Made by a program: the position numbers and the translations under genes | IMG/VR virus record: IMGVR_UViG_3300042945_003542 | Span: 1-26,702 of that record | Reading direction: 5' to 3' (one strand) | Length of the DNA stretch: 26,702 bases | Source: a virus | In this document: positions 1 through 23,305 of the stretch, in pieces | Numbering within the stretch: the stretch's first letter is position 1 | How the letters are laid out: every line of letters begins with the position of its first letter | The notes under the pieces: model-generated | What the model saw: only the letters and a program-made list of their open reading frames with translations | The model's database searches: none | Told to the model about the DNA's origin: nothing

Positions 1-297
1 GTCGCCGAACTCAGGCGCAAGCTGCACCTGCGGAACCGGCACCATTTCGCCGCGGTTGCGCGCGTCGTAGTAGCCCTGGAACTGCTGACGTACCTGTCGC
101 GCTTGCACGCCGACCGCATCCGGTCGCATCGCAGCGGCTTCCAGCCTGCGCGAGAGTTGCAGCCCTGCGGGGCCAGCCTCCGGCACGCCGCGCTCGTGGT
201 CCTGAATGGCGAGGCTCAGCGCCTCAACCAGCTTGCGTCCGGTTCGTCGATTACCGGCGTCCGCGCCGCTTTGCGCGATCCCGTTGGGCTCGTTCAT
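1..297 (-). CDS. Partial virion protein, N-terminal 99 aa, runs off left edge
   Basis: An open minus-strand frame begins at ATG 295-297 and continues without a stop to base 1, so only the first 99 codons are present. It begins MNEPNGIAQSG and is rich in Arg, Ala and Gln, with a helical, charged stretch around residues 20-80. The start lies inside the end of the upstream 572-aa gene (47-bp overlap), as is common in this tightly packed operon. No clear Shine-Dalgarno precedes it. Its position at the distal end of the late operon, after two other Ala/Gln-rich genes, suggests the first part of a large internal or ejection protein. That is inference from position and composition only; I recognise no domain. 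Confidence 0.7.
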   Translation of the reverse strand, partial: MNEPNGIAQSGADAGNRRTGRKLVEALSLAIQDHERGVPEAGPAGLQLSRRLEAAAMRPDAVGVQARQVRQQFQGYYDARNRGEMVPVPQVQLAPEFGD

Positions 298-1969: not shown

Positions 1970-1999
1970 GACGGATCAGGAGAAGAGGTTGCCGAATCC

Positions 2000-2611
2000 C
2001 TACGCTGCGCCGCCCGCGCCAAGCAGGCCGCCCGCCAGCGAAGCGAAGCCGCCGATCCCGGCCGCCTTGCTCGACGCCTTCGCCGCCTTGTCGGCCGCCC
2101 ACTTCTGCATCCCCACCGAGTCGTAGTACGCCTCGATCTGGTTGAGCGCGTTGAGCACCTGCGCCGAAAGGTCCATCTGGCCCTGCGCCATCTGGCCGCG
2201 CGCACCAGCGGCGAGCCCGCCAAGCTGCCCCGCGAACTGCATGTTCGCCTGCGGCGTGAAACGCCCGATGGCCGCCGCCGGGTTCACGCCGAGCATGGCG
2301 AGTTGATCGCCGAGCTGCCGCTGCGAGTCGCGGAAGATCCCGCCCTGCGTGGCGAGATTCTGGCCGAGCGCGCCCATCGTCGCCTCGCGGATCAGCGGGA
2401 GAGCGTCCTGCGCGTACTGCTCCACGCGCTGCGGAGCGCCCGTGGTCAGGAAGTACGGCGTCACGCCCTTCACTGGAGCGCCGGGATGCCCGTAGCTCGA
2501 GTACGCGCCCGTGAACTGCCCGGAGCCCGGCGTCACAGTCGGCGCCGGCCCCTTCGGCTTGTTGACGCCGTACGGGTCGAATCCTTGGGAGTAGCCGGGC
2601 TGTGCGTACAT
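2000..2611 (-). CDS. Ala/Gly-rich structural or internal virion protein, putative
   Basis: The product is 203 aa. The N-terminal 50 residues are Gly/Pro/Tyr-rich (MYAQPGYSQGFDPYG) and probably unstructured. A helical middle follows (about 60-170, with many Gln, Ala and Leu). The C-terminal tail is small and Ala/Gly-rich with a hydrophobic character (GGFASLAGGLLGAGG), reminiscent of the membrane-active tails of small phage ejection proteins. A strong Shine-Dalgarno (CGGAGG, about 6 nt before ATG) supports the start. It lies between a small beta-rich gene and the 572-aa protein, so a minor virion or ejection protein is the likeliest role. That role is inferred from context; no family is recognised. 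Confidence 0.8.
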   Translation of the reverse strand: MYAQPGYSQGFDPYGVNKPKGPAPTVTPGSGQFTGAYSSYGHPGAPVKGVTPYFLTTGAPQRVEQYAQDALPLIREATMGALGQNLATQGGIFRDSQRQLGDQLAMLGVNPAAAIGRFTPQANMQFAGQLGGLAAGARGQMAQGQMDLSAQVLNALNQIEAYYDSVGMQKWAADKAAKASSKAAGIGGFASLAGGLLGAGGAA

Positions 2612-6100: not shown

Positions 6101-6149
6101 CCGACACCGGCGGGCGCACTCCCGCGTGCTTGGCGCTAGGGACGGACAT
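3123..6149 (-). CDS. Tail-hub/stabilisation-type virion protein with LamG-like domain (C-terminal part of a split family?)
   Basis: The product is 1008 aa. Residues about 75-175 look like a LamG/concanavalin-A-type beta sandwich. Residues about 480-570 carry a fibronectin-like module (start KKFRVRCAFYD), then a DNWPPPD element (about 580). The segment at about 650 (ITGLRDFNGRLVITKRD) and that at about 700 (GVLLFWGKRGVYAYDG) look like propeller blades. This order is familiar from large phage hub or stabilisation proteins that sit below the portal in short-tailed phages. What is unusual is that the usual N-terminal part of such proteins appears to be in the upstream 1408-aa gene, which overlaps by 14 bp in another frame. 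A GGGAGG sits 7 nt before this ATG, so independent initiation is also possible. Confidence 0.8.
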   Translation of the reverse strand: MSVPSAKHAGVRPPVSEPRFKLRRGAPLWKPNARDASVANPDADPIGPSSASDGAIFHYQTDGNAYLYQRWDTEMAFEPTALTPGSADVFAFKCLVKPHSINGRRLLFSSKGESAASGGIFVDMLDGKARVGWYDTVQKREVWIETSVPVFDPHHWHYVYVRKRYPSKTLGSGCWRDTLFGLTASTLNDVLLVRRFRKTSASNFLRRTWDYKPSSSVRQFVGFTTDLEQSVADSSGTGLVSRNDRTFTGNAAGQVTASAACFTADFLGMLFCPGTGPFAGQSFVINAFTSSTVVNVVDPITGAAPDLSTLVSDPGGVYTGVKLIKSEGFADSENVDQSSYPIELFGSHLALDASSGVMPFVGEFASFAYTVEAGAAPAIFEPSNSATGGGLNADLADDGCDLFGNTEIFTAGIAGPGELHANESAADAFTAVDTQPYGLADAASSKPNEKMQVAITAAASSARATTPTWKFLRERGELSKKFRVRCAFYDPAQAQVSAPGPELEIDPAGDDASNTSSKIEVQLLDLPASPDRGEIETWVYATLPGTFSFFKVAEVPKGATSTSFSPTLDELARGLPLEFDNWPPPDCSVLEVSQGSLVCGNLKRWVNSDEGEPTDFPDVAVFSKPNRPLAFPAENIVAVPDASREGITGLRDFNGRLVITKRDTMHRAVLRQGAAQSEVVSKTFGASSGAALIEHEGVLLFWGKRGVYAYDGSGIPRWVGANVRELFENGVEPGAALRAVAAVNPRRSQIVMTLRERDALDTSHRLSAEPFGGGLRFSRYESPNLTALCDHATDEGEVGEFVGGTEEGFFVWLDRQDTGLFMLGAAATHGASALVAGVGSTTTQIVVASGTLDLALAGPRGAVVSWGNQRGVALGGEAGLILLDRPASAPPANGDAIKLGVSPRVWETRWLDFEDSESVKRARYLDVTTTLGTGAITVSAFLDDNATARSLIPHASNPPASQIDTAARAVTRFDIGHLNARHFKFRFESDSPFEIIEVVFRVSDTDPT
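6136..6149 (-). other. Candidate +1 frameshift / reinitiation junction
   Basis: The 1408-aa frame ends GTC CGT CCC TAG. The next frame starts at an ATG 13 nt upstream of that end and reads through the same bases as GTC CCT AGC. If the proline tRNA on CCC slipped forward one base to CCT, translation would continue in the 1008-aa frame and join VYVRP to SAKHAGVRPP. CCC followed by a stop is a known type of +1 slip site in some phage structural genes. A GGGAGG at the proper distance from the ATG makes ordinary initiation equally possible. Confidence 0.4.
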
Positions 6150-9100
6150 ACACCGGCCTCCCGCCCGTGGTGACGAACAGAGACGCGCCGTACAGGCCCC
6201 AACTCGCCGGGTTGTCGTGCAGGCCCATTTCGTGGAAGAGGCTGATCGCCGGGTGCGATTCGATCACTCCGTACTGCGCGCCGCCAGAGTCGAGCGTCTT
6301 GTGCCCCACGCCTTCGGGCGCCGCGAGCGCTAGGAACGTCGGGCTTGCGTCCGCGAGCGCCTCCGGCTGGAACCCCGAGGATGCGGCTCCGGCGCGAGCA
6401 GCGACGCGCGCAAGCAGCCCGCCGAGGCCATGCACGCGACCGTGCAAACGGTCAGGCCGAAGAACCTCGCCGCCGACGGCCCCGTCGGTGAATGTGCGCG
6501 CCGAGCGCGGCTCCGCGTAGGACGCCCGCGCGACGCCCAGCAGCACCGAGCAGCCCGTGATGGGCACGACGTTCGCCAGGTCCAGCCACGATCCCGCGGC
6601 CGCGCCGTTCTCCGTCGCCAGCAGCCGCACCGACACCGGGCGCCCGTTGACGAAGCACAGCACGCCGCTCGAAATCCAGGAATTGGACTGCGCGCCGACC
6701 AGCGTGAATCGAACGTGGGTCCACTCGCCCGGCGTCAGCGCCGCAGCGCCGCGCGCGACGAACAGGCCGCCGTCGGGACGGTTCGTGCCGTCGAACGTCG
6801 CGGTCGATCCGATGGCGAGCTCCGGCGAGCCGTTCGCCAGGCGCAGCCACAGGTGAACCTTGTGCTGCCCGGCCGAGCCGCTCGCGTTGCGCATCGGGTT
6901 CGTCGACAGCGAGCCCACCCAGAGGATCGTCTGGAAGTCGGCCAGGCCGTCGAGCTTGACCCAGGCGTCGATCGAGAACTGCGTCCCCAACCGCGCCGAG
7001 GTGACCTCGAGCCCCGTCGCAGTATCGAAGCGCACGGCGTCGCCCTCGAGCGGAACGTAGGACCCCGATTCGCGCACGCGCGTCGCGCGCATGTGCAGGC
7101 TGCGCTTGATCGTGTCGGTCGGTCCCTCGATGCGCCAGCGGTCGTCGGCGAGGTACAGAGCCCCGCGGGTCGCCGCGAACAGGTCGCCGCGGTGCGATCG
7201 CATCCCGAGCACCGGATTGCGCCGCGGAATCGAAGGAGCACGCCACCAGCGCGGCGCCGCGTCCAGCGCCACGACGGCGGGCGAATACGTGCGGATGCGC
7301 CACTCGGCGGCGCATGGCGCGATGTTGGCGAACACCTCGCGCGTGAGCGCCGCCTCGCTGGGAACCGTCACGCCGACCTCGAACGGGTCCGACATCGACG
7401 TCTGCACCGTGACGTGCGAGAGATCGTCCTCGAAGGCCGTGTAGCCGATGACTCGGAAGCTCGCCGCGGCTGCGTTCCGCATCGTCGGGCCGTCAAAGGG
7501 CCGCGAGAGCGTGATGCTCGATCCCGACGCCGAGGGCGCGTAGTAGAACTCGTCCAGCACCAGCGGGGCCGTGTCGTCTTGCCGCACTTCCAGCGTGTCG
7601 CGCGAGACGCGCAACAGCGTTTCAGCTACAGCCTCGAGCGTGTCCTCCGGCTGGCCGGCGAAGAACGCCAGGCCATCCGCCGACGTCACCGTCGCCGAGT
7701 CACGCGTCACGTTCACGCCCGGCGCCGAAGGCCCCAGCGGGCGCAGCAGGTCGGCCCGCGTGAGCTTCCCAGGAGGCAGCGCGCGGCCGCCGGTCAGCTT
7801 CCCCGTCCCGGCAGCCGTCACGCCGCCGCTCGCAGCAGGCAGCGCCCCAGGAGCCGCCACGCCGAACACCCGCACGTCCTCGACGATCAGGCGCGCGCTC
7901 AGCTCGTCGGCTCGCAGCGAATCCGGGCGCCACGCGCCGCCGATGGTCACGACCGAGCGCAGCAGGTCGCGCTTGGGGATCGTCAGCGTCGAGAAGTAGG
8001 CGAACTCGGCCCCAGCGGGATCACCAGCCGCCGGGCTCAGCACGCTCTTGGGCGTCGCCGCCAGATAGACGCGGTACTCGTTCGCGTTGCCCGTCGACTG
8101 CACGCCGATCTGGATGCGGATGCGCTCGCCGACCCACTCGGCCGTGGTCGAGAAGTTCGCCACCGGCCCGGTCGACCAAGGCTCGACCGCCACTGCCACC
8201 GAGCCCGTCTCGTTGTCGAGCGTGGTGTCGACCTCGAGCGTGAAGCCCTGCGGGAAGAAGAACGGATCGGAGCCAAGCGCGAAGTCCACCACGCTCGCGT
8301 TCCACAGCCGCAACATGGGACGCGCCGCCACGTCCAGCCCCGTGTTGTCCTCGCGCAATTCCCACGAGGCCAGGACCGGCGCCCCCTGCGTTCGGCGCTG
8401 CGTCGAGCCCACAGGCACCTCGCGCCCGTAGTACGCCTGCGGGATCACGCACGAGAACTCGATGGCGAACCCCGACGAGCCGGAGCGGAACATTTCGGTC
8501 AGCTCGCGCCGGAGAACGCTGTCGTCCTCCATGTCCAGCGTCAGCGCCTCGCCCTCGCCGCTCAGGAACAGCTTGCCCGCGCCGCGCCCGAGCGTGTACG
8601 GCGCGAGGAACGCCGTGTTCCCCAGCACGAGCTCGCGCAGCGCCGCGCCGCCCGCGTCGTCCAGCGGCCACGCGCCCACGAGGCTCGACACGTCCTGCTC
8701 GGCCAGGTCGTCCGGCAGCGAGTACGACGCCAGCGAGAAGCGCGCCCGCGCCGTCGTCAGGTCGCGCGCCGTCGTCCAGATGCGGAAGCTCGAGAGCCGC
8801 AGCGGGCGCTGATGCCAGCGGAACACGATCACAAAGAACGGCGACGACGTGAATCCCGTGACCGCCGAGAAGTTGTCGGCGCGGTTCAGCCGGAAGTTGC
8901 CCGCGACCTCGGTGTAAGTGCCGATGCGGATGCGCCCGCCGCGGACACTCGCCGGCGTCGCGCCGCTCTGGTTTCCCCACAGTGCCGCCCAGCAGTTGCG
9001 CAGCGCCTCGCTCGTGTTCGCCACAGCCTGACCCGGCACAGCGCCCGTCCCCGTGTTGAACAGGCCCGGCCACGGAGCGGCCGCGCTCGCCAAATCCAGC

Positions 9101-10362
9101 GGGTCGTAGGGGCTCGGCAGGTTCGAGGCCGTCGAGTCGTGCATCCCTCGGAGGTTCAGCCCGAGGAACGGCGTCCCAGCCGTGTAGACGCACGTTTGCC
9201 CCGCCGGATACGCCACCGGTGGATTGATCGCCGACACGTCCACCATGCGATGTCCGGCCGAGTCCATGTGCGCCGAGTCGAGGCCCAGCGGCGCGAACCC
9301 CTGCGTCGCCCACGGAGCGAAGCGCATCCCCAGGCCCAAGAACATCGGATCGCGCCCCGAGAACCGCACGCCGTAGCGCGTCAGATAGTCGAAGTTGTCG
9401 GTCGGACCCTTCCACGAGAACAGGTCGGTCCCGCTCGTCGCGCAGCGCGTCACCGTGCCCGCGTCGTCGCGCAGCACGATCTCGAACGCGCCATCGCTGT
9501 TCCACGCCGCCGTGGGGTTGGAGCTCGTCGCGTCGCCCGGCGTGCCCGTGTCCAAGCGCAGCCGCACCGCCACCTGGTACGCGCGCCCCGGCTCGATGAA
9601 CGCCTTGGCGATGATCGCGCGCAGTCCCATCGTCGCTTGGCGGCCGGACGAACCGACGTTCGCGCCGCCCGCGCCCACGAGGTAGCGCATCTGGTTGCCG
9701 CCGTACGCACCCCACCCCGGAGCGTCGTACCACATGAACACCAGCGCGTAGTTACTCGGCCGGTCGAACGCCGCGGCGCCCGTGATCGTCTCGAACTGGT
9801 CGCCCGTGTTCACCACGCCCAGCGCCCACGACATCGGCGAAAAAGCGTCCCCGCCCTTCTGCGCGATCAGGAAGCACTCTTCGAGCGCCTCGTCGTAGGT
9901 GTTGATCTCGCTGTTCGGCGACGCCGGAGCGCCCGACCCCGCGCGCGGCGAGTAGAGCCGCTCGTCTGCCGGCAACCCGAACCCGATGGAGAACGTGAAC
10001 GAGCGGCCGCGCCGCCCGTGGAACTCGTGCGTCAATGGCGACAGCGCCGTCCCCGAGAGCGCGAAGTCGCCGCCAAGATCCTGCTCGCGGCGGTACGGCA
10101 CGAACACGTAGCCGCGCGACGGCACGCCGCCCAGCGCAGCCTCCGACACCGTGGTCAGCACGCCCGAGTGCGGCGCCGGCTGGTTGTTGAACTTGATCGC
10201 CCCGCCGTGCCCCGACACGCTCTCGCGGTCGAAGTCGATGTTCTCGCAAAACGGAGTCTGCCCGTCCTCGAGGAGAGCGGGGTTTAGCGCATCGTTCAGG
10301 CCGAGCGCCAGCGGCTTGATCGGATAGCGCCGGTAGTGCCGACGCCCCGGCTGGTTCGGCAT
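6136..10362 (-). CDS. Giant LamG-containing tail-hub virion protein (N-terminal part of a split family?)
   Basis: The product is 1408 aa. The N-terminal segment (residues 20-60, LNDALNPALLEDGQ then ENIDFDRESV) resembles the opening of phage tail-hub/stabilisation proteins. Two LamG/concanavalin-like regions can be seen, at about 560-800 and about 1115-1250 (FSIDAWVKLDG, then GEWTHVRFTL). A blade-like repeat lies at about 1055-1080 (GDLFAATRGALYLADD). The end, LFVTTGGRPVYVRP, is where the family normally continues into a GIxPP-type linker; here that linker (AGVRPPVSEP) is in the next gene's frame. The start has GAGG 5 nt before ATG, in the same 12-nt context as the portal gene. The LamG-like domains suggest glycan or receptor contact, which is inference. 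Confidence 0.8.
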   Translation of the reverse strand: MPNQPGRRHYRRYPIKPLALGLNDALNPALLEDGQTPFCENIDFDRESVSGHGGAIKFNNQPAPHSGVLTTVSEAALGGVPSRGYVFVPYRREQDLGGDFALSGTALSPLTHEFHGRRGRSFTFSIGFGLPADERLYSPRAGSGAPASPNSEINTYDEALEECFLIAQKGGDAFSPMSWALGVVNTGDQFETITGAAAFDRPSNYALVFMWYDAPGWGAYGGNQMRYLVGAGGANVGSSGRQATMGLRAIIAKAFIEPGRAYQVAVRLRLDTGTPGDATSSNPTAAWNSDGAFEIVLRDDAGTVTRCATSGTDLFSWKGPTDNFDYLTRYGVRFSGRDPMFLGLGMRFAPWATQGFAPLGLDSAHMDSAGHRMVDVSAINPPVAYPAGQTCVYTAGTPFLGLNLRGMHDSTASNLPSPYDPLDLASAAAPWPGLFNTGTGAVPGQAVANTSEALRNCWAALWGNQSGATPASVRGGRIRIGTYTEVAGNFRLNRADNFSAVTGFTSSPFFVIVFRWHQRPLRLSSFRIWTTARDLTTARARFSLASYSLPDDLAEQDVSSLVGAWPLDDAGGAALRELVLGNTAFLAPYTLGRGAGKLFLSGEGEALTLDMEDDSVLRRELTEMFRSGSSGFAIEFSCVIPQAYYGREVPVGSTQRRTQGAPVLASWELREDNTGLDVAARPMLRLWNASVVDFALGSDPFFFPQGFTLEVDTTLDNETGSVAVAVEPWSTGPVANFSTTAEWVGERIRIQIGVQSTGNANEYRVYLAATPKSVLSPAAGDPAGAEFAYFSTLTIPKRDLLRSVVTIGGAWRPDSLRADELSARLIVEDVRVFGVAAPGALPAASGGVTAAGTGKLTGGRALPPGKLTRADLLRPLGPSAPGVNVTRDSATVTSADGLAFFAGQPEDTLEAVAETLLRVSRDTLEVRQDDTAPLVLDEFYYAPSASGSSITLSRPFDGPTMRNAAAASFRVIGYTAFEDDLSHVTVQTSMSDPFEVGVTVPSEAALTREVFANIAPCAAEWRIRTYSPAVVALDAAPRWWRAPSIPRRNPVLGMRSHRGDLFAATRGALYLADDRWRIEGPTDTIKRSLHMRATRVRESGSYVPLEGDAVRFDTATGLEVTSARLGTQFSIDAWVKLDGLADFQTILWVGSLSTNPMRNASGSAGQHKVHLWLRLANGSPELAIGSTATFDGTNRPDGGLFVARGAAALTPGEWTHVRFTLVGAQSNSWISSGVLCFVNGRPVSVRLLATENGAAAGSWLDLANVVPITGCSVLLGVARASYAEPRSARTFTDGAVGGEVLRPDRLHGRVHGLGGLLARVAARAGAASSGFQPEALADASPTFLALAAPEGVGHKTLDSGGAQYGVIESHPAISLFHEMGLHDNPASWGLYGASLFVTTGGRPVYVRP

Positions 10363-14180: not shown

Positions 14181-15695
14181 TCAGCTCTCCTCGATGTCCA
14201 TGATTCGGACGCCGCAACGATCGCGGACGCCCACGCCCAGCGTGCACTCTTCGACCGTGCGCGCCTGGTAGCGGTCCATGTCCTGGAGGTACTGCCAGAT
14301 GTTGGCGCCCTGCTCCGAAGCCCACGAGAGCGGCTCCGTGACCCAGTTCTGGAACCCGCCCTGCTCGAGCGACAACCCGTGGATGTTGTTCTTCGGGTGC
14401 AGGCGGTCGACCAGCCACGGGATGCCGCCGGGGCCGACCATCGTGCGGTCCCAGCCACCGGGCAGGTTCACCGTGTTCACGAAGCGCTTCTCGCCCGTGA
14501 GCTGCGCGCTGTACACGCGCTTCGGTGCGTAGCTCGAGAGCCACACCTGGATCTCGGCGCTGTTGCGCTCCTCCACCTCGTCGATGATCTGCATGAGCAG
14601 GTTCTCGGTCGGGGTGCGCAGCGAGCCGCTGTTGTGGTTGACGACGCCCTGGTTGAAGGCGAGCTCGCTGTTCCAGCCGGCCGCGGCCGACGTGCACGCG
14701 AGGCCCTGGAAGTAGTTGCCGGTCGTGCTGGTGCGGTCGTCGGTGCCGCCCCACTGCCACGCGCCGTTGTCCGTGCCTTCGATGCCGCCGCCGGCGAAGT
14801 CAGCGCCGACTTCCGCAGCGCGGCCGTTGCCGTCGAGCGGGCCGCCGTAGCCGAGGATGCCCAAGAGGCCCTGCGGCTCGGCGCGGAACGCCGAGTTCTG
14901 GACCATCTGCGCGTTGCTCGAGTTGTCGGTCGAGCCGGTCTTGACGACCCAATCGCCGATCACGATGGTCGAGAGATCGGTGACGCCGGACGCGCCCGCC
15001 AGGAACTCAAACGTGGCCTGCGAGGAGTCGTCGACCGACGTGATGTTGCAGATCGCCTTGGGCACGCCAGCGCCCGTCAGGACGAGCACGCGCATACCCG
15101 CGGTGAGCCACTTGGTCGGCGCTTCGTTCGCCATGCCGGTTGCGCTGGCGCCAGGCGCGTTCAGGCCCGTGCCGATGTCCTGGTTGATGCGCAGCGTGAA
15201 CTGCTGCGAGCCCGCGGCCGATCCGGCCTCGGCGATCTCGCACAGGCGGCCCGAGCCGTCGCTGTAGAGCATCCGCGCGCGGTCGAGCTCGTAGTCGTCG
15301 AGGAACTGCTGGATCTCCAGCGCCATCGGCTCGACGTCGCCCGCGCCGTTCGACATGGCGCGCACGAGCTTGCCGTCGAGGATGAAGCGGCCGAACTGCT
15401 GGCGCGAGCGGTAGGCGTACCACGCCATGCGCCGCTGGCCCGGATCGGGGAACTTGCCGTTGTCGCCGACCGCGTTGAACGCGCGCGGGTTGCGACCGTA
15501 CATCGCGCGTTCGCGGACGTGGCGGCCCCCGACGTACTTCGTGTTCTCGGGGATCAGGGAGAGGATGCGCGCGTTGTTGTTGCGCGTGTCGTGCAGCACG
15601 TTGCTCACGAAGTCGTGAGTCAGGTAGTGCAGGAACGGGAATTGGCTCGAGGACGAGCCGAAGCCCAAGCCCAGGTTTGCGTCGGTGGCTGCCAT
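14181..15695 (-). CDS. Major capsid protein
   Basis: The product is 504 aa and is expected to form the icosahedral shell (HK97 fold). The call rests on its place directly downstream of portal and scaffold genes and on typical capsid text: an N-terminal arm, then YGRNPRAFNAVGD, the aromatic segment RRMAWYAYRSRQQFGRF, and EIQQFLDDYELDRARML. Gly/Thr-rich loops follow, and a C-terminal region carries AEIQVWLSSYAP and LPGGWDRTMVGPGGIPWLVD. It is larger than minimal capsid proteins; residues about 150-260 look like an inserted beta-rich domain. The start has no Shine-Dalgarno; instead a 14-bp inverted repeat surrounds the ATG (see the separate entry). It is separated by 49 bp from the scaffold gene. 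Confidence 0.88.
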   Translation of the reverse strand: MAATDANLGLGFGSSSSQFPFLHYLTHDFVSNVLHDTRNNNARILSLIPENTKYVGGRHVRERAMYGRNPRAFNAVGDNGKFPDPGQRRMAWYAYRSRQQFGRFILDGKLVRAMSNGAGDVEPMALEIQQFLDDYELDRARMLYSDGSGRLCEIAEAGSAAGSQQFTLRINQDIGTGLNAPGASATGMANEAPTKWLTAGMRVLVLTGAGVPKAICNITSVDDSSQATFEFLAGASGVTDLSTIVIGDWVVKTGSTDNSSNAQMVQNSAFRAEPQGLLGILGYGGPLDGNGRAAEVGADFAGGGIEGTDNGAWQWGGTDDRTSTTGNYFQGLACTSAAAGWNSELAFNQGVVNHNSGSLRTPTENLLMQIIDEVEERNSAEIQVWLSSYAPKRVYSAQLTGEKRFVNTVNLPGGWDRTMVGPGGIPWLVDRLHPKNNIHGLSLEQGGFQNWVTEPLSWASEQGANIWQYLQDMDRYQARTVEECTLGVGVRDRCGVRIMDIEES

Positions 15696-15728
15696 GTGAG
15701 TTGAAGGTGGTTGGGGCAGCCACCGACG
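15680..15728 (-). promoter_or_regulatory. 14-bp inverted repeat enclosing the capsid start codon
   Basis: Plus-strand arms 15680-15693 and 15715-15728 are perfect complements, separated by 21 nt. In the capsid mRNA the loop is a C/A/U-rich, purine-poor leader, and the start codon straddles the loop and the 3' side of the stem. Codons 2-6 (Ala-Ala-Thr-Asp-Ala) are paired with the upstream arm. No GGAGG-like sequence precedes the ATG. A role in controlling capsid translation is inferred. Without it, a structure this close to the start should hinder initiation. Confidence 0.7.
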
Positions 15729-15744
15729 TTAGACCGGGGGCCGC

Positions 15745-16743
15745 CTAGACGGATTGATTCGTGCCGTTCAGCGCTTGGCGGAACGACGACATGAGGCCGC
15801 GGAGACCTTGCACCGCCGACCCGTCTTTGAGCGCCTTGCGCGTCGCGTACTTCGGGTCCAGGCGCGGGATCTGCGGAGCCCCGCTCGGCGTACGAGGCAC
15901 GGCAGCATCAGCGCGCGATTGACGCGCCTTGCGCTCGACCTCCAGGTGACCCTCGACCAGCCGCTTCACTTGTGCGGCGATGATCGGCGCGGCGTCCTCG
16001 GGGGTCTCGAACTCGCCAGCGGCGAGAGACGACTCCAGGAGCCTGCGGGCCACGTCCCCAGCTTCGGGGTTTTCGTTCAGGTACGCCTGGGAGGACAGTG
16101 CGCGCTCGACCCTCGTGTGACGGTCCCTCTGGTGGAGGGCCTGCTCGGTCTGGTTGTACCGGGCTTCGAGGGCGGCGATGCGCCGCTCCCATTCCGTCGG
16201 GATTTGAGCCTGCCGCGCCTGCGGCGTCAAGGGCTCATCCAGAGGATCGCCTGCGGGCTCTTCGCGCCGCGCGGGCTGGACGCCTCGCATCACGTCGAGC
16301 GCAGCCTGGAAGCGCTCCGGGTGCGTCTGGCGCAAAAGCTCCAGGTCGCGCACCACGGCGAGGCGCGCTTCGTTGTCGCGCTGCTCACGCTCGACCTGCT
16401 GGCGACGCTCCTCGAGCTTGTCGGCCGCGAGGCCCTTCTGCGCAAACTTCACCAGGTCGTCGTGCGAGAGCTCGATGTCCTGGTGACGGAACCGCACCTT
16501 GGCCTTCGGCGGAAGCGTAGGCGCGGGCGCAGCCGGGGCCGCCGGCTGTTCGGGCGCGGCCGGCTCGCCGCCTTGCTCCGGCGCCTGCGGGGCCATGCGG
16601 TTCAGGATGCTGTTCGGGCGCAGCGTCGGCGCGGCCGCGGGCTGCTCGCCGCCACCGCGACGGATGGCGTTCAGCACGTCGAACTGCGCTTGCGGCGCGG
16701 ACGGTTGCCCGTTGGTGGGCTTGATGATCTGGTTCTCGGACAT
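15745..16743 (-). CDS. Scaffold protein, putative
   Basis: The product is 332 aa. The N-terminal about 80 residues are Pro/Ala/Gln-rich and disordered. Residues about 80-140 and 185-260 are charged and helical (for example LAADKLEERRQQVEREQRD), typical of the extended coiled-coil middle of phage scaffolds. The C terminus is basic (KYATRKALKDG, then SSFRQALNG), as expected for capsid-binding tails. Its location immediately before the major capsid gene and after the portal is the standard scaffold position. GAGGAGG lies about 11 nt before the ATG, somewhat far. Family identity is inferred from this architecture, not from a specific motif. Confidence 0.82.
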   Translation of the reverse strand: MSENQIIKPTNGQPSAPQAQFDVLNAIRRGGGEQPAAAPTLRPNSILNRMAPQAPEQGGEPAAPEQPAAPAAPAPTLPPKAKVRFRHQDIELSHDDLVKFAQKGLAADKLEERRQQVEREQRDNEARLAVVRDLELLRQTHPERFQAALDVMRGVQPARREEPAGDPLDEPLTPQARQAQIPTEWERRIAALEARYNQTEQALHQRDRHTRVERALSSQAYLNENPEAGDVARRLLESSLAAGEFETPEDAAPIIAAQVKRLVEGHLEVERKARQSRADAAVPRTPSGAPQIPRLDPKYATRKALKDGSAVQGLRGLMSSFRQALNGTNQSV

Positions 16744-16746
16744 GGC

Positions 16747-17337
16747 TCAGACGACCTCCTCACCGACAGACTCGTTGATCTCACCGGCACGACGCTCGAA
16801 CTCCTCGCGGGAGCACGAGCCGAGCACGTACTCGCGTTTGACCATCACGTAGAACGTGACGTTTCCCTCGACATCCCGCTTGGGCGTCAGGTGCGGCGCC
16901 CACGGGCGCGAGTCCCCGGACAGCAAGCACTCTTGGCAGGGGATGTGATCCCGCGTCCAAATGTGCGTCGTCTCCGGCTTGACCAGCGAGAACCACTGAT
17001 CGGGCCGAATCGCCCCCTCGTAGGGGCCGGTCAGGTAGGCCGCGTGGTGCTCGCGGTTCCGCGGGCAGTAGAGGAAGTGGATGTTCTCCTCCGCGTCGCG
17101 CTGGCGCTCCTCCTTGGCGCGCTGGGCGTCGCGCTCGCGCTTCTTCACGAGAAGCTCGGCGGCGCGGCCGTACAGCGGCTTGCGCGGGGCCTTGGTGGGT
17201 GCAGGCGCTTCCTGCGGGGCGGGTTCAGGCGTGCCCGGTTGGGGCGTCGCCTCGGCCTGCGGCTCCGTCGTCTGCGGCGTGGTGGCCGCCTGTGCGACGG
17301 AAGCCGCGAGGGCCTCCTTGTTGATGGTCTTAGCCAC
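16747..17337 (-). CDS. Hypothetical protein with Cys/His motif between portal and scaffold
   Basis: The product is 196 aa from GTG 17337, with AAGGAG 6 nt upstream; it overlaps the portal stop by 8 bp. The first 55 residues are Pro/Gln/Ala-rich and probably disordered. A basic helix follows (about 60-85). The rest is a compact domain with CPRNREHH (about 92-99), then CQEC (about 134-137) and a later SCSREEF, which could bind zinc. The adjacent scaffold also has a Pro-rich N terminus. It may be a portal- or scaffold-associated assembly factor. The role is unknown. Confidence 0.8.
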   Translation of the reverse strand: MAKTINKEALAASVAQAATTPQTTEPQAEATPQPGTPEPAPQEAPAPTKAPRKPLYGRAAELLVKKRERDAQRAKEERQRDAEENIHFLYCPRNREHHAAYLTGPYEGAIRPDQWFSLVKPETTHIWTRDHIPCQECLLSGDSRPWAPHLTPKRDVEGNVTFYVMVKREYVLGSCSREEFERRAGEINESVGEEVV

Positions 17338-19465
17338 GGGTGGCTCCTTGGGATGCCTTCGGTTTCGGCTTCGAGGGTTGGCCCTTGTTGGCCCTCCCCC
17401 CCGGCTGGGTCATCTGCTGCAACTGGAGTTGCTGCAACATGGCCTGCTGGAGTTTCTGCTGGTGCTCCTGGTAGTGCTGGATCACCAGCTGGCGCGCGAT
17501 CGGATCGAGCCGGCGGAACTCGTCGGTGCGCATCCGCCGCGACATGACGCGCATGTGCGCATCGTCGTCGTCGAACGGGTTGGTCTTGTAGTCGAGCATC
17601 GGCTCGCCAAGCTGGCTCTGCACGACGAACTTGAGCGGGTCGGCGACCATCTCGTCCCACTCGCGTTCCTGGTTCTCCTCTTCGACGAGGCGCTGCGCGA
17701 GCACGTCCTCGGCGCCGCCGTAGGCCAGCGTCTTGAGCACGCTGAGCTTGTCCTCGGGGTTGTTGATCGGGTCGAGCACGCCCGCCTGCACGTACTCGAG
17801 GATGCGCGCCCGCTCGACGCTCCGGCTCTGGAAGAAGTCGGGCTCGCCGACGATTCGAATGTCCTCGCGGATGTCCGCGGCCTCGAAGCGCTGCACGCGG
17901 TAGGCGTTGTCGGCGCCCACGTAGGTCATCGTGCGCTGCGTCGTGTAGAACTTCCGCGCCGTGGCGAGCATGATGCGCCCGCCGAGCAGCGTCGCCCGCA
18001 AAGCGCTGCGCGCCGCCGGCGTGAGCGCCTTGTTCTTCTCCTCGATCATCGCGTCGAGGCCGGGCCGCGAGCGGATCTGCCCCGGCAGCTTGCTCATATC
18101 GGGGTCGGCCTGGCTCGAGATCATCTGCATCTCGGCGAGCGCGCGGTTCGCCCCGTCGGCGAGCTCCTTGGGGATCATCGGCACCGGGCCGGGCATCATC
18201 GGCTTGCCGCCGGTTGCGAGCAGGTCGCACTCGTACACGACGCCGGGCTCGATGGCGAGCTGACCCTTGGGCAGCCCCGAGCGCTTGTCGACGAACATCG
18301 GCGGCGTCGAGTGGACGTTGGCGACTTCGGTTTGCTTGCCGCGCGCGTTGTTGTACTGGAACTGCGGATTGCGCAGGTCGTCGATGAGCGGGTGCCCCAT
18401 GAACGAGCCCGGCTTCTTCTGCCAGTCGACCTTGATGAAGGGCAGCGGGTACTTCGTCGCCTGCATCGGGTTGTCGCGGTTCACCAGCACGGTGTCGCCC
18501 GCGATCACGATGTAGCGGCCTTTCCAGTTGTTGCGCCGCATCGGGCGCTCGAAGAAGCGCGTGAGCACCGTGCGATGGCGGTTCTTGTCGCGCGGCTGCA
18601 TGTTCGCGTGCGGCGTGTTCGCGCCGCCCTGCATGAACGAGAGCAGCTCGTCCCACCACAGCGACGTGGTGCGCGGCTCCGCGGGCTTGATGTCCTTGAC
18701 CGCGGCGAACCCGTAGGTGTCCTCGAGCGTCGAGAGGTCGACCATCTCGTTCGTGCCGCACCACGAGCAGGAGTCGTCCTGGAAGTCCGTGCGGGAAGTC
18801 CAGTCCCAATGCACGCGCAGCGGCGAGTGAACGCGCGCCGTCACTTCGCCCGGCGGGATGTCCTCGAAGCGCCCCTCGTCCTCGGCGACGCGTTGCTGGT
18901 CGGGCGTCAGGCCCACCACGGTCTCGCCGTTGTCGCCCAGGTAGAAGCGATCCGGCGAGCCCGCCTCCGGGTTCCAGCCGATCTCGATGAAACCAGAGCC
19001 GCACGCGGCCGCCCAGGTGAGCGCTTCCTCGAGAAGCTCGCTCCAGTTGACCACGTTGTCGCGCAGGTGCTCGAACAGCTTTTCGCTGACGAAAGCCTTG
19101 TCGCGCTCGGCCTTGGTGTGGTCCCTGGTCGGCGCCCGGAACACCGACGAACTGGCGAGCACGGTGCTGATCGCGCGCGTGACCAGCGTGCGCACGAAGT
19201 TGGCCCGGTACAGAACCTTGTGCGGCGGAAGCTGCGGCGTGCGGAACGCGATTCCGTCGTCGACGAAGTGCTGGTTCCCGTTGAGGAACGCGAGGTTTTT
19301 CACCCACTCGCGTTCCATCGGGTTGCGGTGCTGATCGTTCAGCTTCGGGCTGATCCGAGAGCGCACGTACTGCATGGCGTCGCTCTTGGTGAGCTTGCCG
19401 CGCGGTACGACCAGCGAGGGGCCGGATCCTTGCGTCTGGGAGTTGCGCGAGAGCTGAAACTGCAT
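17330..19465 (-). CDS. Portal protein (large, P22-type)
   Basis: The product is 711 aa, the ring through which DNA is packaged and ejected. Its length and position beside TerL fit the large portals of podoviruses. The N-terminal half has portal-like text such as NPMEREWVKNLAFLNGNQHF (about 49-68), RANFVRTLVTRAIS (about 88-101) and FIEIGWNPEAG. A helical central region (about 440-540) includes RSALRATLLGGRIMLATARKF. The C terminus is a long Gln/Leu-rich helix (about 660-690, QEHQQKLQQAMLQQLQLQ) that could form the barrel seen in P22-type portals. GAGG 5 nt upstream supports the start. The 12-nt start context GAGGCCGCCATG is shared with the 1408-aa gene. Confidence 0.87.
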   Translation of the reverse strand: MQFQLSRNSQTQGSGPSLVVPRGKLTKSDAMQYVRSRISPKLNDQHRNPMEREWVKNLAFLNGNQHFVDDGIAFRTPQLPPHKVLYRANFVRTLVTRAISTVLASSSVFRAPTRDHTKAERDKAFVSEKLFEHLRDNVVNWSELLEEALTWAAACGSGFIEIGWNPEAGSPDRFYLGDNGETVVGLTPDQQRVAEDEGRFEDIPPGEVTARVHSPLRVHWDWTSRTDFQDDSCSWCGTNEMVDLSTLEDTYGFAAVKDIKPAEPRTTSLWWDELLSFMQGGANTPHANMQPRDKNRHRTVLTRFFERPMRRNNWKGRYIVIAGDTVLVNRDNPMQATKYPLPFIKVDWQKKPGSFMGHPLIDDLRNPQFQYNNARGKQTEVANVHSTPPMFVDKRSGLPKGQLAIEPGVVYECDLLATGGKPMMPGPVPMIPKELADGANRALAEMQMISSQADPDMSKLPGQIRSRPGLDAMIEEKNKALTPAARSALRATLLGGRIMLATARKFYTTQRTMTYVGADNAYRVQRFEAADIREDIRIVGEPDFFQSRSVERARILEYVQAGVLDPINNPEDKLSVLKTLAYGGAEDVLAQRLVEEENQEREWDEMVADPLKFVVQSQLGEPMLDYKTNPFDDDDAHMRVMSRRMRTDEFRRLDPIARQLVIQHYQEHQQKLQQAMLQQLQLQQMTQPGGRANKGQPSKPKPKASQGATRG

Positions 19466-19477
19466 GGCGGCCTCGGG

Positions 19478-19795
19478 TCAGGTCTGGAGGTTGTTCGGCA
19501 GGTCGTAGCCGTCCGCATCCTGCTGGTACGTCGGCTGCATCGGAATCCGCGTGAACTGCGGTTGCGCGGGCTCCTGCGGCTGACCCATCGTAGCAACGAG
19601 GGGCGCCTGCGCTCGGATCGCGGGATCGGCGGCGCCGGAGAGGTGCGTCACCACGAGCAGCTTCTCCATGTCGGCCTGGCGCCGCATGGCTTCGCGCGCC
19701 ATGCGCGCCGTGCTCGAGATCGAGTAGATCGCGGCCGCCAGCGCGAGCACCACGACCACCAGGGCGAACCAGTCCATCGTTCCGTTCATCGTCAC
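19478..19795 (-). CDS. Small one-TM protein between TerL and portal
   Basis: The product is up to 105 aa. A GTG at 19795 overlaps the TerL stop (GTGA); an ATG at 19789 is also possible. A single TM segment lies at about residues 9-27 (WFALVVVVLALAAAIYSIS). A short basic amphipathic helix follows (ARMAREAMRRQADMEKL), then a Pro/Gln-rich tail. The layout, a short outside part, one TM segment and a charged tail, is like several small phage membrane proteins. A lysis (holin-like) or membrane-anchoring role is possible but there is no direct evidence. A second protein of this type lies at 11949..12245. It is unlikely to be an error, because it is exactly packed between two confident genes. Confidence 0.78.
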   Translation of the reverse strand: MTMNGTMDWFALVVVVLALAAAIYSISSTARMAREAMRRQADMEKLLVVTHLSGAADPAIRAQAPLVATMGQPQEPAQPQFTRIPMQPTYQQDADGYDLPNNLQT

Positions 19796-21759
19796 AGTCC
19801 TTGCCCGTTCGGGGCGGTGTCCCAGCGCCGTTTGGTGTTGAGCCCGTCGTCGCCGCGGCGCTCGTTGCGGCGACGCCAGAAATCCTCATCGGAGCCAGTC
19901 GGCGGAAGCCGATCGGGCTCCTCGTGCGTGGCCTGTTCCGCGGCCGTCAGCTCGAGCAGCTTGAGCGCGATGCCGTAGGCCATGATGCAGTCGTTCCTGC
20001 ACTTGCGGTCGATCTTCTCCTTCTCGTCGAGCTGCGCGTCGAGGCACTCCTGGAGCAGTCGCTTCGAGGGCGTGTCCGCGTCGGGGTTGGCGAGCGCGAT
20101 CGCCACGCGGTCGATCACGAGGGCCTTCCCGCTCGTGCTCATGATCCAGCCCTTGCGCGGCACGAACTTGCCTTCGCGGTCCTCCCAGCGCTGTTGCACG
20201 AACAGGCGTTCGCAGCCCGCGGCCTCGGCGGCTTCGTACACGGCGAGCCCGTGCTGCGAGGGATGCGTCTCGACTGCGACGGTGGCGCGGTACAGATCAC
20301 TGAGCAGCTTCACCGTGCGGCCGAACAGGTGCGGAGGCTCCCATCCGTACCACTCCGCGACCACAGCCTCGGTCTTGCAGTCGATCACGCACGCGACGCA
20401 CGGGTCGCCGCCGCGCACGCCCGCCGCGGTGTCCACGCCGATCACGTAGTTGCGCCCGGCCGCCGGCCAGCGCCACACGCTCACCTCGCCGTGGCGGTCC
20501 TCGAGGATGCGCGGCTCGCCGGCGTCGTCCACGATGCGCCCCACCTGGATCGGCGGGCGAACGTGCGCGGTCATTTTGTGCTGGACGTGCTCGAGGTTGA
20601 ACGCGCTGCGCCCCGACGCGAGCAGCGCCTCCTCGGGGAACGCCGGGCACTGTTCATGGAACGTCTGGATGTTCCCGTTGCACTTCTCCGCGATGTAGTA
20701 GCGGCGCCATGCCAGTTGGTCGTAGTCGACGTTCTTCGGCGGCGCCCCGCGGATGTGCACGCGCTGCGCGAGCAGGATGCGCTCCTCCGGCGTCAGCGTG
20801 CGCTCGATGCGCGCGCGGATGTCGCTCGGCAGCGCGCTCGGGTTCGAGCCGATCTTCGTCCAGCGATACTCCTCGTGGAGAAACCACGGGATGAACATGG
20901 CGGCCCAGCCGATGCCGTAGTCGACGCCCGAACCGTCCTCGCGCCGCAGGTCGTCGGGCATCGCCAAGCCCTGCTGCTTGTACCAAGCGCGCCGGAACTT
21001 GTCGGCGAAGTAGCCCGTGTTCCCCTTGGCCTGGGAAACGTCGATGGCGAGCGACTCGGGGACCTCGGGCAGCGCGAGCTCGATGCCCTTGCCCTTTTCC
21101 TCGGCGTCCGGCCACTTCGAGGTTTCCTCCATGTCGACGTAGAGGTTCGTCTCGCCGAAGCCTGGGTTCGGCGTGTTCGCGCTCACGACCTGGATGCGCG
21201 AGTTGAACGGCGGCCCCATGACGATCATGTCGCGGTTCGACTTGTCCGGCGTGAGGCTCCACGACGCGCCGCTCGACATCCGCAGCCGGGTGAACATCAG
21301 CTTCACGCGGCCGAGCAGCGTCTCGCACAGCTCCTCGCGGTCCGTGACCACGCGGAGGTTCAAGTTCGCCATCGTGAGCATCGCGTGCAGGAACACGGCC
21401 AGCGTGTAGGTGCTGATCCCGTTCTGGCGCACCTTGAGGATCACGACGCGCCGCGGGGCGCCGCGCCGCTCTTGCCTGAGCAGGATGGCCTCGAGGTTGC
21501 GCTGCGACTGGTTGTAGACGAACGGAATCGGGCGGGCCTTCTTGTCGACGATCACCACCAGGCGCTCGATCCACTCGCGGCGCGACATCCGCCACTGGTT
21601 GCCCCGCCGGTCGCCGAACACGCCGCGCTCGCGGTTGTAGAGCAGGAAGAAGTGATTGAGCCGCTGTTGCTCCGGCGAATCGCCGGCCGCCTCGTAGGCG
21701 CGGCGCTTGGCGTCCGTGAGCAGCGCCAGCAGGCGCGGATCGTCCTCGCGGAACCGCAC
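19792..21759 (-). CDS. terL: Terminase large subunit
   Basis: The product is 655 aa from GTG 21759, one base after the TerS stop; longer upstream reading overlaps TerS and is not needed. ATPase: a Walker-A-like VRQNGIST (about residues 110-117, the form seen in many phage terminases) and Walker-B LYVDMEE (about 206-212). Nuclease: acidic motifs GVD (D443), VAVETH (E497) and RNDCIMAYGIAL (D590), matching the three acidic positions of the RNase-H-like headful or cos nuclease. The text CPAFPEEAL (about 371-379) is also typical of this family. It would dock on the portal, cut concatemers and pump DNA. The weak AAAGG upstream suggests translational coupling to TerS. Confidence 0.93.
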   Translation of the reverse strand: MRFREDDPRLLALLTDAKRRAYEAAGDSPEQQRLNHFFLLYNRERGVFGDRRGNQWRMSRREWIERLVVIVDKKARPIPFVYNQSQRNLEAILLRQERRGAPRRVVILKVRQNGISTYTLAVFLHAMLTMANLNLRVVTDREELCETLLGRVKLMFTRLRMSSGASWSLTPDKSNRDMIVMGPPFNSRIQVVSANTPNPGFGETNLYVDMEETSKWPDAEEKGKGIELALPEVPESLAIDVSQAKGNTGYFADKFRRAWYKQQGLAMPDDLRREDGSGVDYGIGWAAMFIPWFLHEEYRWTKIGSNPSALPSDIRARIERTLTPEERILLAQRVHIRGAPPKNVDYDQLAWRRYYIAEKCNGNIQTFHEQCPAFPEEALLASGRSAFNLEHVQHKMTAHVRPPIQVGRIVDDAGEPRILEDRHGEVSVWRWPAAGRNYVIGVDTAAGVRGGDPCVACVIDCKTEAVVAEWYGWEPPHLFGRTVKLLSDLYRATVAVETHPSQHGLAVYEAAEAAGCERLFVQQRWEDREGKFVPRKGWIMSTSGKALVIDRVAIALANPDADTPSKRLLQECLDAQLDEKEKIDRKCRNDCIMAYGIALKLLELTAAEQATHEEPDRLPPTGSDEDFWRRRNERRGDDGLNTKRRWDTAPNGQGL

Positions 21760-21760
21760 G

Positions 21761-22156
21761 TCAGACGGACGCCTTTCGCGTGAGCTTGAGCCGGTTGATG
21801 AGGCTCGCCACCGCCCAGGGCTCGATCTCGAGCGCCCGCGCGATCTGCACATGGCTCATGCCCACGTCGAGCAGCGCCCGCAGCTTCTTCGCCTCGAGCT
21901 GCGCCAGGTCGCGCAGGTTCCGGTTCTTGCGGCGGAACGTCTTGTTCCGGTTCCACTGGAATTGGCACGCCGGGCACACGCGCACGCGCCGCCCCTCGGG
22001 GCCGCCGTCGACGACGAACTTGCCCATGCCGGGATACTCGCCGCACACGAACACGGTCGTTCTCACGACCCGCCCCGACGGGTATCGGTACTCCCACGGA
22101 GCCCCGCACGCCTCGCACGTCGACGGGACTTCGGCGTCCGGTTTTCGCTTTGCCAT
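21761..22156 (-). CDS. Terminase small subunit, zinc-ribbon plus helix-turn-helix, putative
   Basis: The product is 131 aa from ATG 22156. A 66-residue upstream extension in frame exists but is low-complexity and crosses two hairpins, so I exclude it. Residues 14-17 (CEAC) and 61-64 (CPAC) form a probable zinc ribbon, with one extra Cys at 38. The C-terminal half is basic and helical; residues about 97-127 (LLDVGMSHVQIARALEI, then ASLINRLKL) look like a helix-turn-helix. A DNA-binding protein directly before TerL, with one base between the genes, is the standard small terminase position. It would recognise the packaging site. A transcriptional regulator is the main alternative. No strong Shine-Dalgarno is visible. 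Confidence 0.75.
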   Translation of the reverse strand: MAKRKPDAEVPSTCEACGAPWEYRYPSGRVVRTTVFVCGEYPGMGKFVVDGGPEGRRVRVCPACQFQWNRNKTFRRKNRNLRDLAQLEAKKLRALLDVGMSHVQIARALEIEPWAVASLINRLKLTRKASV

Positions 22157-22370: not shown

Positions 22371-22430
22371 ATGAACGAGACACATCGTAGCCGCTTGGGC
22401 GGCCGGCGCAATACCGGGGTTCGCCTATGA
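22371..22430 (+). CDS. 19-aa leader ORF coupled to the initiator gene
   Basis: ATG 22371 opens a 20-codon frame (MNETHRSRLGGRRNTGVRL) whose stop TGA shares bases with the ATG of the next gene (ATGA). GGAG lies 10 nt upstream. The initiator gene has no clear ribosome site of its own, so its translation could depend on reading this ORF. It is basic, with five Arg. The ORF may be chance; the exact overlap is the evidence. Confidence 0.35.
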   Translation: MNETHRSRLGGRRNTGVRL

Positions 22431-23305
22431 GCGCGCCCCAAAGTCGGGAGCCTCTCCCGTGGTTTCGGTTCGACGTGGCCGAGGTCGCCACAGCCCGCGG
22501 CGGGATGCGCGTGCTCGGCGATGACGCCGCGCTCGCCGCGATGATGCGCTTCGCCTGGCGCTCCTGGCGCGAGGGTCGTCTCACCGAGGACGACGCGCGC
22601 CAGACGTGCGGCGCCGGGTTCGAGACGCTGCTCGCCGCCATGCTCGAGCGCGGACCCGACGGGCTGCTGTCGCTGCCCTGGATGGAGGCCGCTCGGACCG
22701 AGGCCGACGCCTACCGGCTCCAGCAGCGGGAATCCGGCCGTAGGGGCGGCATGGCGAAGGCTGCTAATGCCAAGCGACCCTCTAGCGACCCTACAGGCTC
22801 GCTTAGCGACCCACTAGCGAAGTCTACCCAGGAGAGGAGAGTAGAGGAGAGTAGAGATTCAGCCCTACAGAGTGCTTCGCACTCTTCCGGGCTGGAGCCG
22901 GCGCCTCGCGGCGCGTCTCCGGGCGAACTCTTCGAGAACCCGAAGAGGCCCAAAACCGAGGCGAAGAAGGGCGAGCACGTCCAGGCGGTGGAAATGTTCC
23001 AGCGGGCTTGGGCTCGCATCCGGCACGGCGACCTCACGGTGACGGTCAAGACCGACCCGAAGGACATCCCGCCGGCTGAGCGGTACACGCCGACCGCAGC
23101 GGACTTCATCCACGCCGCGAGGCTCTGGAAGCGCATTGGCGGCGACACGGCCCTCCTGCGCGAGCGGATGAGCAACTTCTTCCAGAGCGATGCGCCCTGG
23201 ATTCGGGCGGGCGGCTTTGCGCTGTTCGCCACCAAGTTCGATCTCCTGACCGACCCGATCATGGCGCTGAACGGCAGCAGCAGCGCCCAACACACCGAGA
23301 GCTGA
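22427..23305 (+). CDS. Phage replication-initiator-like protein (DUF1376/O-type layout)
   Basis: The product is 292 aa. An N-terminal helical domain (residues about 5-105; PWFRFDVAEVATARGG, then ALAAMMRFAWRSWREGRLT) resembles the DNA-binding part of phage replication proteins that begin by describing a D-x-A-L-like fold. It is followed by QQRESGRRGGMAKAANAKR and a Ser/Glu-rich linker (about 105-165) of the sort found in these proteins. The C-terminal part (about 185-280) is helical and could contact a helicase or loader. It would bind the origin and load the replisome; the linker DNA itself carries origin-like repeats. Family identity is a pattern judgement. It probably depends on coupling with the 19-aa ORF. 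Confidence 0.65.
   Translation: MSAPQSREPLPWFRFDVAEVATARGGMRVLGDDAALAAMMRFAWRSWREGRLTEDDARQTCGAGFETLLAAMLERGPDGLLSLPWMEAARTEADAYRLQQRESGRRGGMAKAANAKRPSSDPTGSLSDPLAKSTQERRVEESRDSALQSASHSSGLEPAPRGASPGELFENPKRPKTEAKKGEHVQAVEMFQRAWARIRHGDLTVTVKTDPKDIPPAERYTPTAADFIHAARLWKRIGGDTALLRERMSNFFQSDAPWIRAGGFALFATKFDLLTDPIMALNGSSSAQHTES
22772..22914 (+). other. Putative replication origin inside the initiator gene
   Basis: Four copies of AGCGA, three extended to AGCGACCC, start at 22773, 22784, 22805 and 22816. The spacings of 11, 21 and 11 bp keep them on one helical face. A perfect 10-bp tandem, GAGGAGAGTA, occupies 22834-22853 in a purine-rich tract. A 35-nt hairpin follows (22860-22894: 6 bp, 3x3 loop, 7 bp, TTC loop), then a smaller one (22901-22914). 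This order is reminiscent of lambda, whose origin lies in gene O. No strongly AT-rich unwinding element is visible. Confidence 0.5.

Follow-up and report, generated by a model that had tools for sequence, protein, structure and literature searches.

The start codon of the major capsid gene in this phage sits at the edge of a perfect 14-bp hairpin in the mRNA, and the upstream arm of that hairpin can pair instead with a strand that begins at the stop codon of the preceding gene. Three segments are involved: segment 3 overlaps the capsid start, segment 2 is its non-coding partner, and segment 1, further upstream, is a partial copy of segment 3, so that segment 2 can form either a 2:3 or a 1:2 helix. 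Our preferred reading, to which we give a probability of about one half, is that this RNA structure acts in cis to keep the capsid start closed, with segment 1 as a competing decoy that would make the start usable during a time window on fresh mRNA. We infer this from the complementarities, the missing Shine-Dalgarno (SD) sequence, the retention of the hairpin in a diverged lineage, and the computed energies and barriers; translational control as such is plausible.

The capsid gene and its neighbourhood

The DNA analysed, hereafter the window, is a stretch of 26,702 nt (IMGVR_UViG_3300042945_003542, positions 1-26,702), part of a 52.9-kb phage contig that also appears as IMGVR_UViG_3300044611_001951 (99.99-100% identical). 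The genome looks complete, either circular or terminally repeated, because the two ends of the contig overlap by ~124 nt (window 2168-2291 is present at both; window 1-2291 and 2168-26702 compared with L030 and L028). The last bases of the contig also form an 18-bp hairpin, which may be an assembly fold-back.

On the minus strand, the gene order is terminase (19792-21852), a small gene, portal (17330-19465), a 196-aa gene, a 332-aa gene (15745-16743), capsid (14181-15695, 504 aa, with its ATG at 15695), and further genes. A 914-aa frame that overlaps the real portal is probably no gene. The label "capsid" rests on this order (terminase, portal, two small genes, capsid) and on a match to phrog_14242 "major head protein" (1.1e-18) that is confined to residues 351-503, the last third of the protein; the relatives' homolog, which starts at the same ATG, matches this family more strongly (3e-24). 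The window capsid also has a weak profile match to the capsid of Arthrobacter phage Jasmine, and an AlphaFold model (pLDDT 33) did not confirm an HK97 fold. Directly 5' of the capsid, the 332-aa gene has a strong SD (GAGGAGG, -12.2 kcal/mol) and ends with a UAG stop at 15747-15745; no family match was found for it, and the name "scaffold" would apply by position only.

A perfect hairpin at the capsid start

The hairpin spans 15680-15728 on the minus strand. Its downstream arm, segment 3 (15680-15693), extends from the G of the AUG to the second base of codon 6 and is complementary at 14/14 positions to the upstream non-coding arm, segment 2 (15715-15728); between them lies a C/A/U-rich loop of 21 nt (15694-15714). 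These arms and the loop agree with an earlier sequence-only reading of this DNA, which had also placed the ATG at the boundary between loop and stem: the loop ends with the A (15695) and U (15694), and the G (15693) belongs to the loop-closing pair. In mRNA order, the region around the capsid start reads UAG (the stop of the 332-aa gene), GCGGCCCCCGGUCUAA, CGUCGGUGGCUGCC, CCAACCACCUUCAACUCACAU, GGCAGCCACCGACG. A region of 81 nt folds at -40.1 kcal/mol (z -4.8), a stability reached by 0/200 shuffles. The proposed sequestration of codons 2-6 is borne out by computed folding in a 400-nt context, where the stem has a probability near 1 and the bases from the G of the AUG to codon 6 are paired.

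A match of this length is rare. The hairpin is the sole perfect inverted repeat of at least 11 bp in the window (loops of 3-40 nt), and 100 dinucleotide shuffles yielded a mean of 0.01 stems of at least 14 bp, with 14 bp reached anywhere in the window in 1/100. The chance of such a stem somewhere in the window is thus about 1%, and by our estimate far less, ~1e-4, at one given start codon, in line with the earlier judgement that a chance match at the start is unlikely. The arm sequence GGTGGCTGCC was found in either genome solely as the two arms of the hairpin; no second copy of an arm that might act in trans was found in either genome, except one single-mismatch 11-mer in G002. Rfam 15 at the gathering score gave no match in the window (only sub-threshold matches), and no intrinsic terminator (a GC hairpin with a short loop, then a T run) was found.

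Two simpler accounts of the gene arrangement were set aside. Fusion of the 332-aa gene and the capsid by frameshifting or readthrough is ruled out by a stop in the capsid frame at the hairpin foot (15729-15731, minus strand; by reading the sequence, TAA in the window and TAG in the relatives), and any N-terminal extension of the capsid is therefore limited. A wrongly chosen start codon is unlikely, as homology begins at codon 1 and no other ATG occurs before codon 65.

A long perfect duplex at a gene junction could also be a processing site for a double-strand-specific enzyme of the RNase III type, which would separate or stabilise the capsid mRNA; processing hairpins at gene junctions are known from T7. 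Here, however, cleavage of the stem would split off or shorten capsid codons 2-6, and a duplex of 14-15 bp is on the short side for this type of enzyme, so we regard this explanation as improbable.

The capsid start lacks an SD and has the highest computed opening cost of the matched genes

The capsid AUG has no SD in the 18-20 nt before it and, by reading, none before the hairpin either. Its best upstream duplex with the anti-SD, at +3.2 kcal/mol, is the worst among 13 genes whose starts are matched in both genomes; the corresponding value is 0.2 kcal/mol in L004, the relative used for comparison, and most phage genes lie between -3 and -12 kcal/mol. The absence of a ribosome site noted from the sequence is thus upheld. 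The computed cost of opening the capsid start (20.3 kcal/mol in the window, 18.2 kcal/mol in L004) is the highest of the 13 matched genes in both genomes, most other matched starts having an SD. Closure, as computed, depends on segment 2: when this segment is covered and thereby removed from pairing, the cost falls from 21.6 to 2.9 kcal/mol in the window and to 5.2 kcal/mol in L004. A closed start with no SD fits the high expression of a capsid badly unless an opener exists, and none was identified.

Inhibitory structures at translation starts have been described for the T4 genes e, soc, 49, and I-TevI (PMC3014915). The present element resembles these in that a helix at a phage initiation region buries the SD and/or AUG on long transcripts (PMC3014915): in computed folds the capsid start region is sequestered in a stable helix with upstream RNA, and this trait is conserved in all close relatives found (one lineage, three contigs), though absent in very distant capsid relatives. 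It most likely works like the e/soc/49 structures and is a candidate member of that group. It differs from gene e, where late promoters give transcripts without the 5' strand, in having no SD, no recognisable promoter, a capsid gene as its target, and a second upstream strand that competes. Timing of the gene e kind is nevertheless a possible, if unlikely, alternative, in which the hairpin would silence the capsid on long read-through transcripts while a promoter or an RNA cut in the loop gives an efficiently translated, short-leader or leaderless mRNA without segment 2. Such a scheme is documented for T4 gene e, whose late transcripts lack the 5' strand (PMC3014915); it would explain why the SD is missing here while the neighbours have one, and it would draw on the same drop in opening cost, from 21.6 to 2.9 kcal/mol, once segment 2 pairing is gone. 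Against it, a scan restricted to the sigma-70-like type found no such promoter in the region, no PF00940 RNA polymerase gene was found (the controls of that search likewise gave no match), and segment 1 would be left unexplained.

Retention of the hairpin in a diverged lineage

Relatives were sought in IMG/VR with a capsid alignment, the terminase, tail, portal, one unknown gene, and two DNA patterns. These searches yielded the window's own lineage and one other, represented by three nearly identical contigs (L002-L004) with a capsid at 79% amino acid identity; the only other returns were unrelated matches to the arm pattern, and no relatives were found in phage, plasmid, and species-genome collections. 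DNA identity between the lineages is ~80%, and identity at fourfold sites is 71%. The sequence-only reading held that relatives lacking complementarity upstream of the capsid ATG, or using another start codon, would speak against it; the hairpin and the same ATG are kept in all relatives found. In L002-L004, the stem has 15 pairs, 12 of them in an unbroken run and three beyond a single A.A mismatch, while the loop has diverged and is 6 nt longer. Segment 3 is unchanged, segment 2 keeps 13/14 bases, and an identical 10-bp core of the inverted repeat is present in both lineages.

The arms, which the earlier reading had proposed to examine for covariation, show no two-sided compensatory change between the two lineages. 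The only change inside the stem turns T-A into A.A, and the new outermost pairs of L002-L004 relative to the window (G-C at the foot and A-U into the AUG) likewise arose by changes on one side. Against the fourfold background of 71%, conservation of segment 2 at 13/14 positions corresponds to p ~0.06 by our estimate, which is not far above background and makes its retention suggestive, not conclusive; the four unchanged codons in segment 3 would be expected about a third of the time. Two lineages, the only ones found in IMG/VR, cannot prove selection on the structure. The inverted repeat could have no function and be a chance or historical feature inherited by two related lineages, given that these are ~80% identical in DNA, that the arms are conserved just modestly over background, and that 1/100 shuffles gives such a stem. 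We consider this a little less probable than timing of the gene e kind, in view of the exact placement at the start codon, the retention of 15/16 pairs against turnover of the loop, and the least accessible matched start in both genomes.

The longer loop also bears on whether the repeat acts as DNA. An operator or recombination site that overlaps the start codon by accident would account for the identical 10-bp core in both lineages and for an arm sequence that is unique in both genomes. Its arms, however, differ in spacing by 6 bp between the lineages, a shift of about half a DNA helical turn that takes them out of phase and is easier to reconcile with an RNA hairpin than with a phased DNA operator; moreover, it is a single site inside a gene cluster, and the wobble-containing 1:2 pairing is meaningful in RNA only. 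We therefore think a DNA-level site very improbable.

Among distant capsid relatives, the fold at the capsid start is unremarkable in Arthrobacter phage Jasmine, in ctLwi270, and, as annotated, in Xp15, and an SD-like stretch is visible in Jasmine and ctLwi270. Because these three phages have no unusual fold there, the hairpin is, on present evidence, probably a feature of this small clade. Elsewhere in IMG/VR, the arm pair was found at an ATG start in no unrelated phage. In about ten contigs of unrelated phages (L010-L014, L017-L019, L021, L022), the same 10-nt arms, GGTGGCTGCC and GGCAGCCACC, form an inverted repeat around a conserved loop of 25-27 nt. The copy in L021 (L021:2784-2828) lies, by reading, between terminase-like and portal-like genes, and the repeats in L021, L022, and L013 had no Rfam match.

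A competing strand upstream of the hairpin

The earlier reading missed an upstream strand that competes with the hairpin. Segment 1 (15733-15745, minus strand) starts with the final base of the upstream stop codon and copies segment 3 (GGCAGCCACCGA) imperfectly: it reads GGCGGCCCCCGG in the window (9/12 identical) and GGCGGCUACCGA in L004 (10/12), and pairs with segment 2 at 12/13 positions in each lineage. The 1:2 hairpin has a computed energy of -18.0 kcal/mol in the window and -21.2 kcal/mol in L004, and shuffled versions of segment 1 were as stable as the real one in 1.9% and 0.06% of trials, respectively (p 0.019 and 0.0006; the 1:2 fold was a post hoc observation). Three differences between the lineages fall within this helix: C-G to U-G preserves a pair, C.U to A-U creates one, and the third loses a wobble pair. 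Both helices use 15715-15727 and are mutually exclusive, one strand being common to the two.

The balance between the isolated hairpins differs between lineages. In L004 they are nearly equal (-24.1 kcal/mol for 2:3, -21.2 for 1:2), whereas in the window 2:3 (-28.6 kcal/mol) is ahead of 1:2 (-18.0) by ~10 kcal/mol or more, which makes an equilibrium switch doubtful there and counts against the preferred reading. Folding of the growing transcript gives a different picture: 1:2 is the best fold until ~9-13 nt of capsid coding sequence have emerged, after which 2:3 takes its place, and the computed barrier from 1:2 to 2:3 is ~11 kcal/mol in both lineages.

Taken together, these folds suggest how the proposed control might operate. 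With segment 2 paired to segment 3, a 30S subunit would have no SD to bind and would face a cost of ~20 kcal/mol for opening the start region. Segment 1, as a mimic of segment 3, would take segment 2 first on nascent RNA and leave the capsid AUG open, until 2:3 takes over after ~9-13 nt of capsid coding sequence. The start would thus be usable during a time window on fresh mRNA, or while segment 1 is free, and would shut when a ribosome terminating on the upstream gene covers segment 1, or once the RNA reaches equilibrium.

Upstream translation may close the capsid start

The effect of the upstream ribosome follows from the spacing. In both lineages, 16 nt separate the stop of the 332-aa gene (15747-15745) from the foot of the 14-bp 2:3 register downstream, and a terminating ribosome reaches ~11-12 nt past the stop. 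A ribosome terminating there should therefore cover segment 1 and not enter 2:3. With the 12 nt after the stop treated as covered, the opening cost is unchanged in the window (~21 kcal/mol), and in L004 it climbs from 11.1 to 20.1 kcal/mol. Coupled ribosomes had earlier been proposed to open the hairpin; the anatomy does not suggest this, since the stem is just out of their reach and covering segment 1 never lowers the opening cost, while covering segment 2 does. Closure by coupled ribosomes would be the more natural direction. The earlier reading also suggested that ribosomes might stand by on the loop and that the hairpin might set the ratio of capsid to scaffold. A full three-strand switch by negative translational coupling, in which the ribosome ending the upstream gene hides the decoy and shuts the capsid start, is a doubtful elaboration, to which we give a low probability, just below that of an element with no function. 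The phage might use the structure as a timer on nascent RNA, as negative coupling, or as a silencer of long transcripts accompanied by a separate short transcript.

Other systems share single traits with the arrangement favoured here. Mutually exclusive pairings around one common strand, with the location of a ribosome potentially deciding between the two, recall the three-segment translational attenuator of the ermC leader, although here there is no leader peptide or inducer and the stop codon of the upstream gene takes that place. In the RNA phage MS2, the coat start codon lies in a hairpin, as the capsid start does here, and the maturation start is translated while the RNA is still nascent and an inhibitory fold has yet to form; the MS2 coat hairpin differs in being much weaker and having an SD. 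The T4 genes 25 and 38 likewise have a hairpin that adjoins the start codon, but it lies between SD and AUG in a split initiation region and helps initiation (PMC3014915). At the capsid start, no SD was found 5' of the hairpin whose distance to the AUG could be shortened, and the AUG is inside the structure, at the loop edge.

In tailed phages, a single gene cluster must supply capsid protein in large excess over scaffold and portal, and the way in which translation sets such ratios is known for few phages. If the preferred reading holds, a decoy under the last ribosome of the upstream gene would be a compact device for setting this ratio and an example of negative coupling between neighbours. 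What would be new relative to known inhibitory structures is the lack of an SD, the capsid as target, and the decoy strand under the upstream stop codon.

Other features of the phage genomes

Several further features were recorded in these genomes. An open reading frame at window 22427-23305 (plus strand) has 95% amino acid identity to the sister lineage, compared with ~80% for most structural genes, and gave no Pfam or PHROG match. Two proteins are very large: one of 2709 aa (L030:6805-14934, minus strand), with no Pfam match, and one of 1408 aa (window 6136-10362, minus strand), with no PHROGs match. A long inverted repeat at a contig end (L006:8945-8994) is either a fold-back artefact or a hairpin end. 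Finally, at L029:11326-13824 (plus strand), a YqaJ-type exonuclease precedes a RecT match that is weak and below threshold; together they are likely a recombination module, and an AAA_5 ATPase lies nearby.
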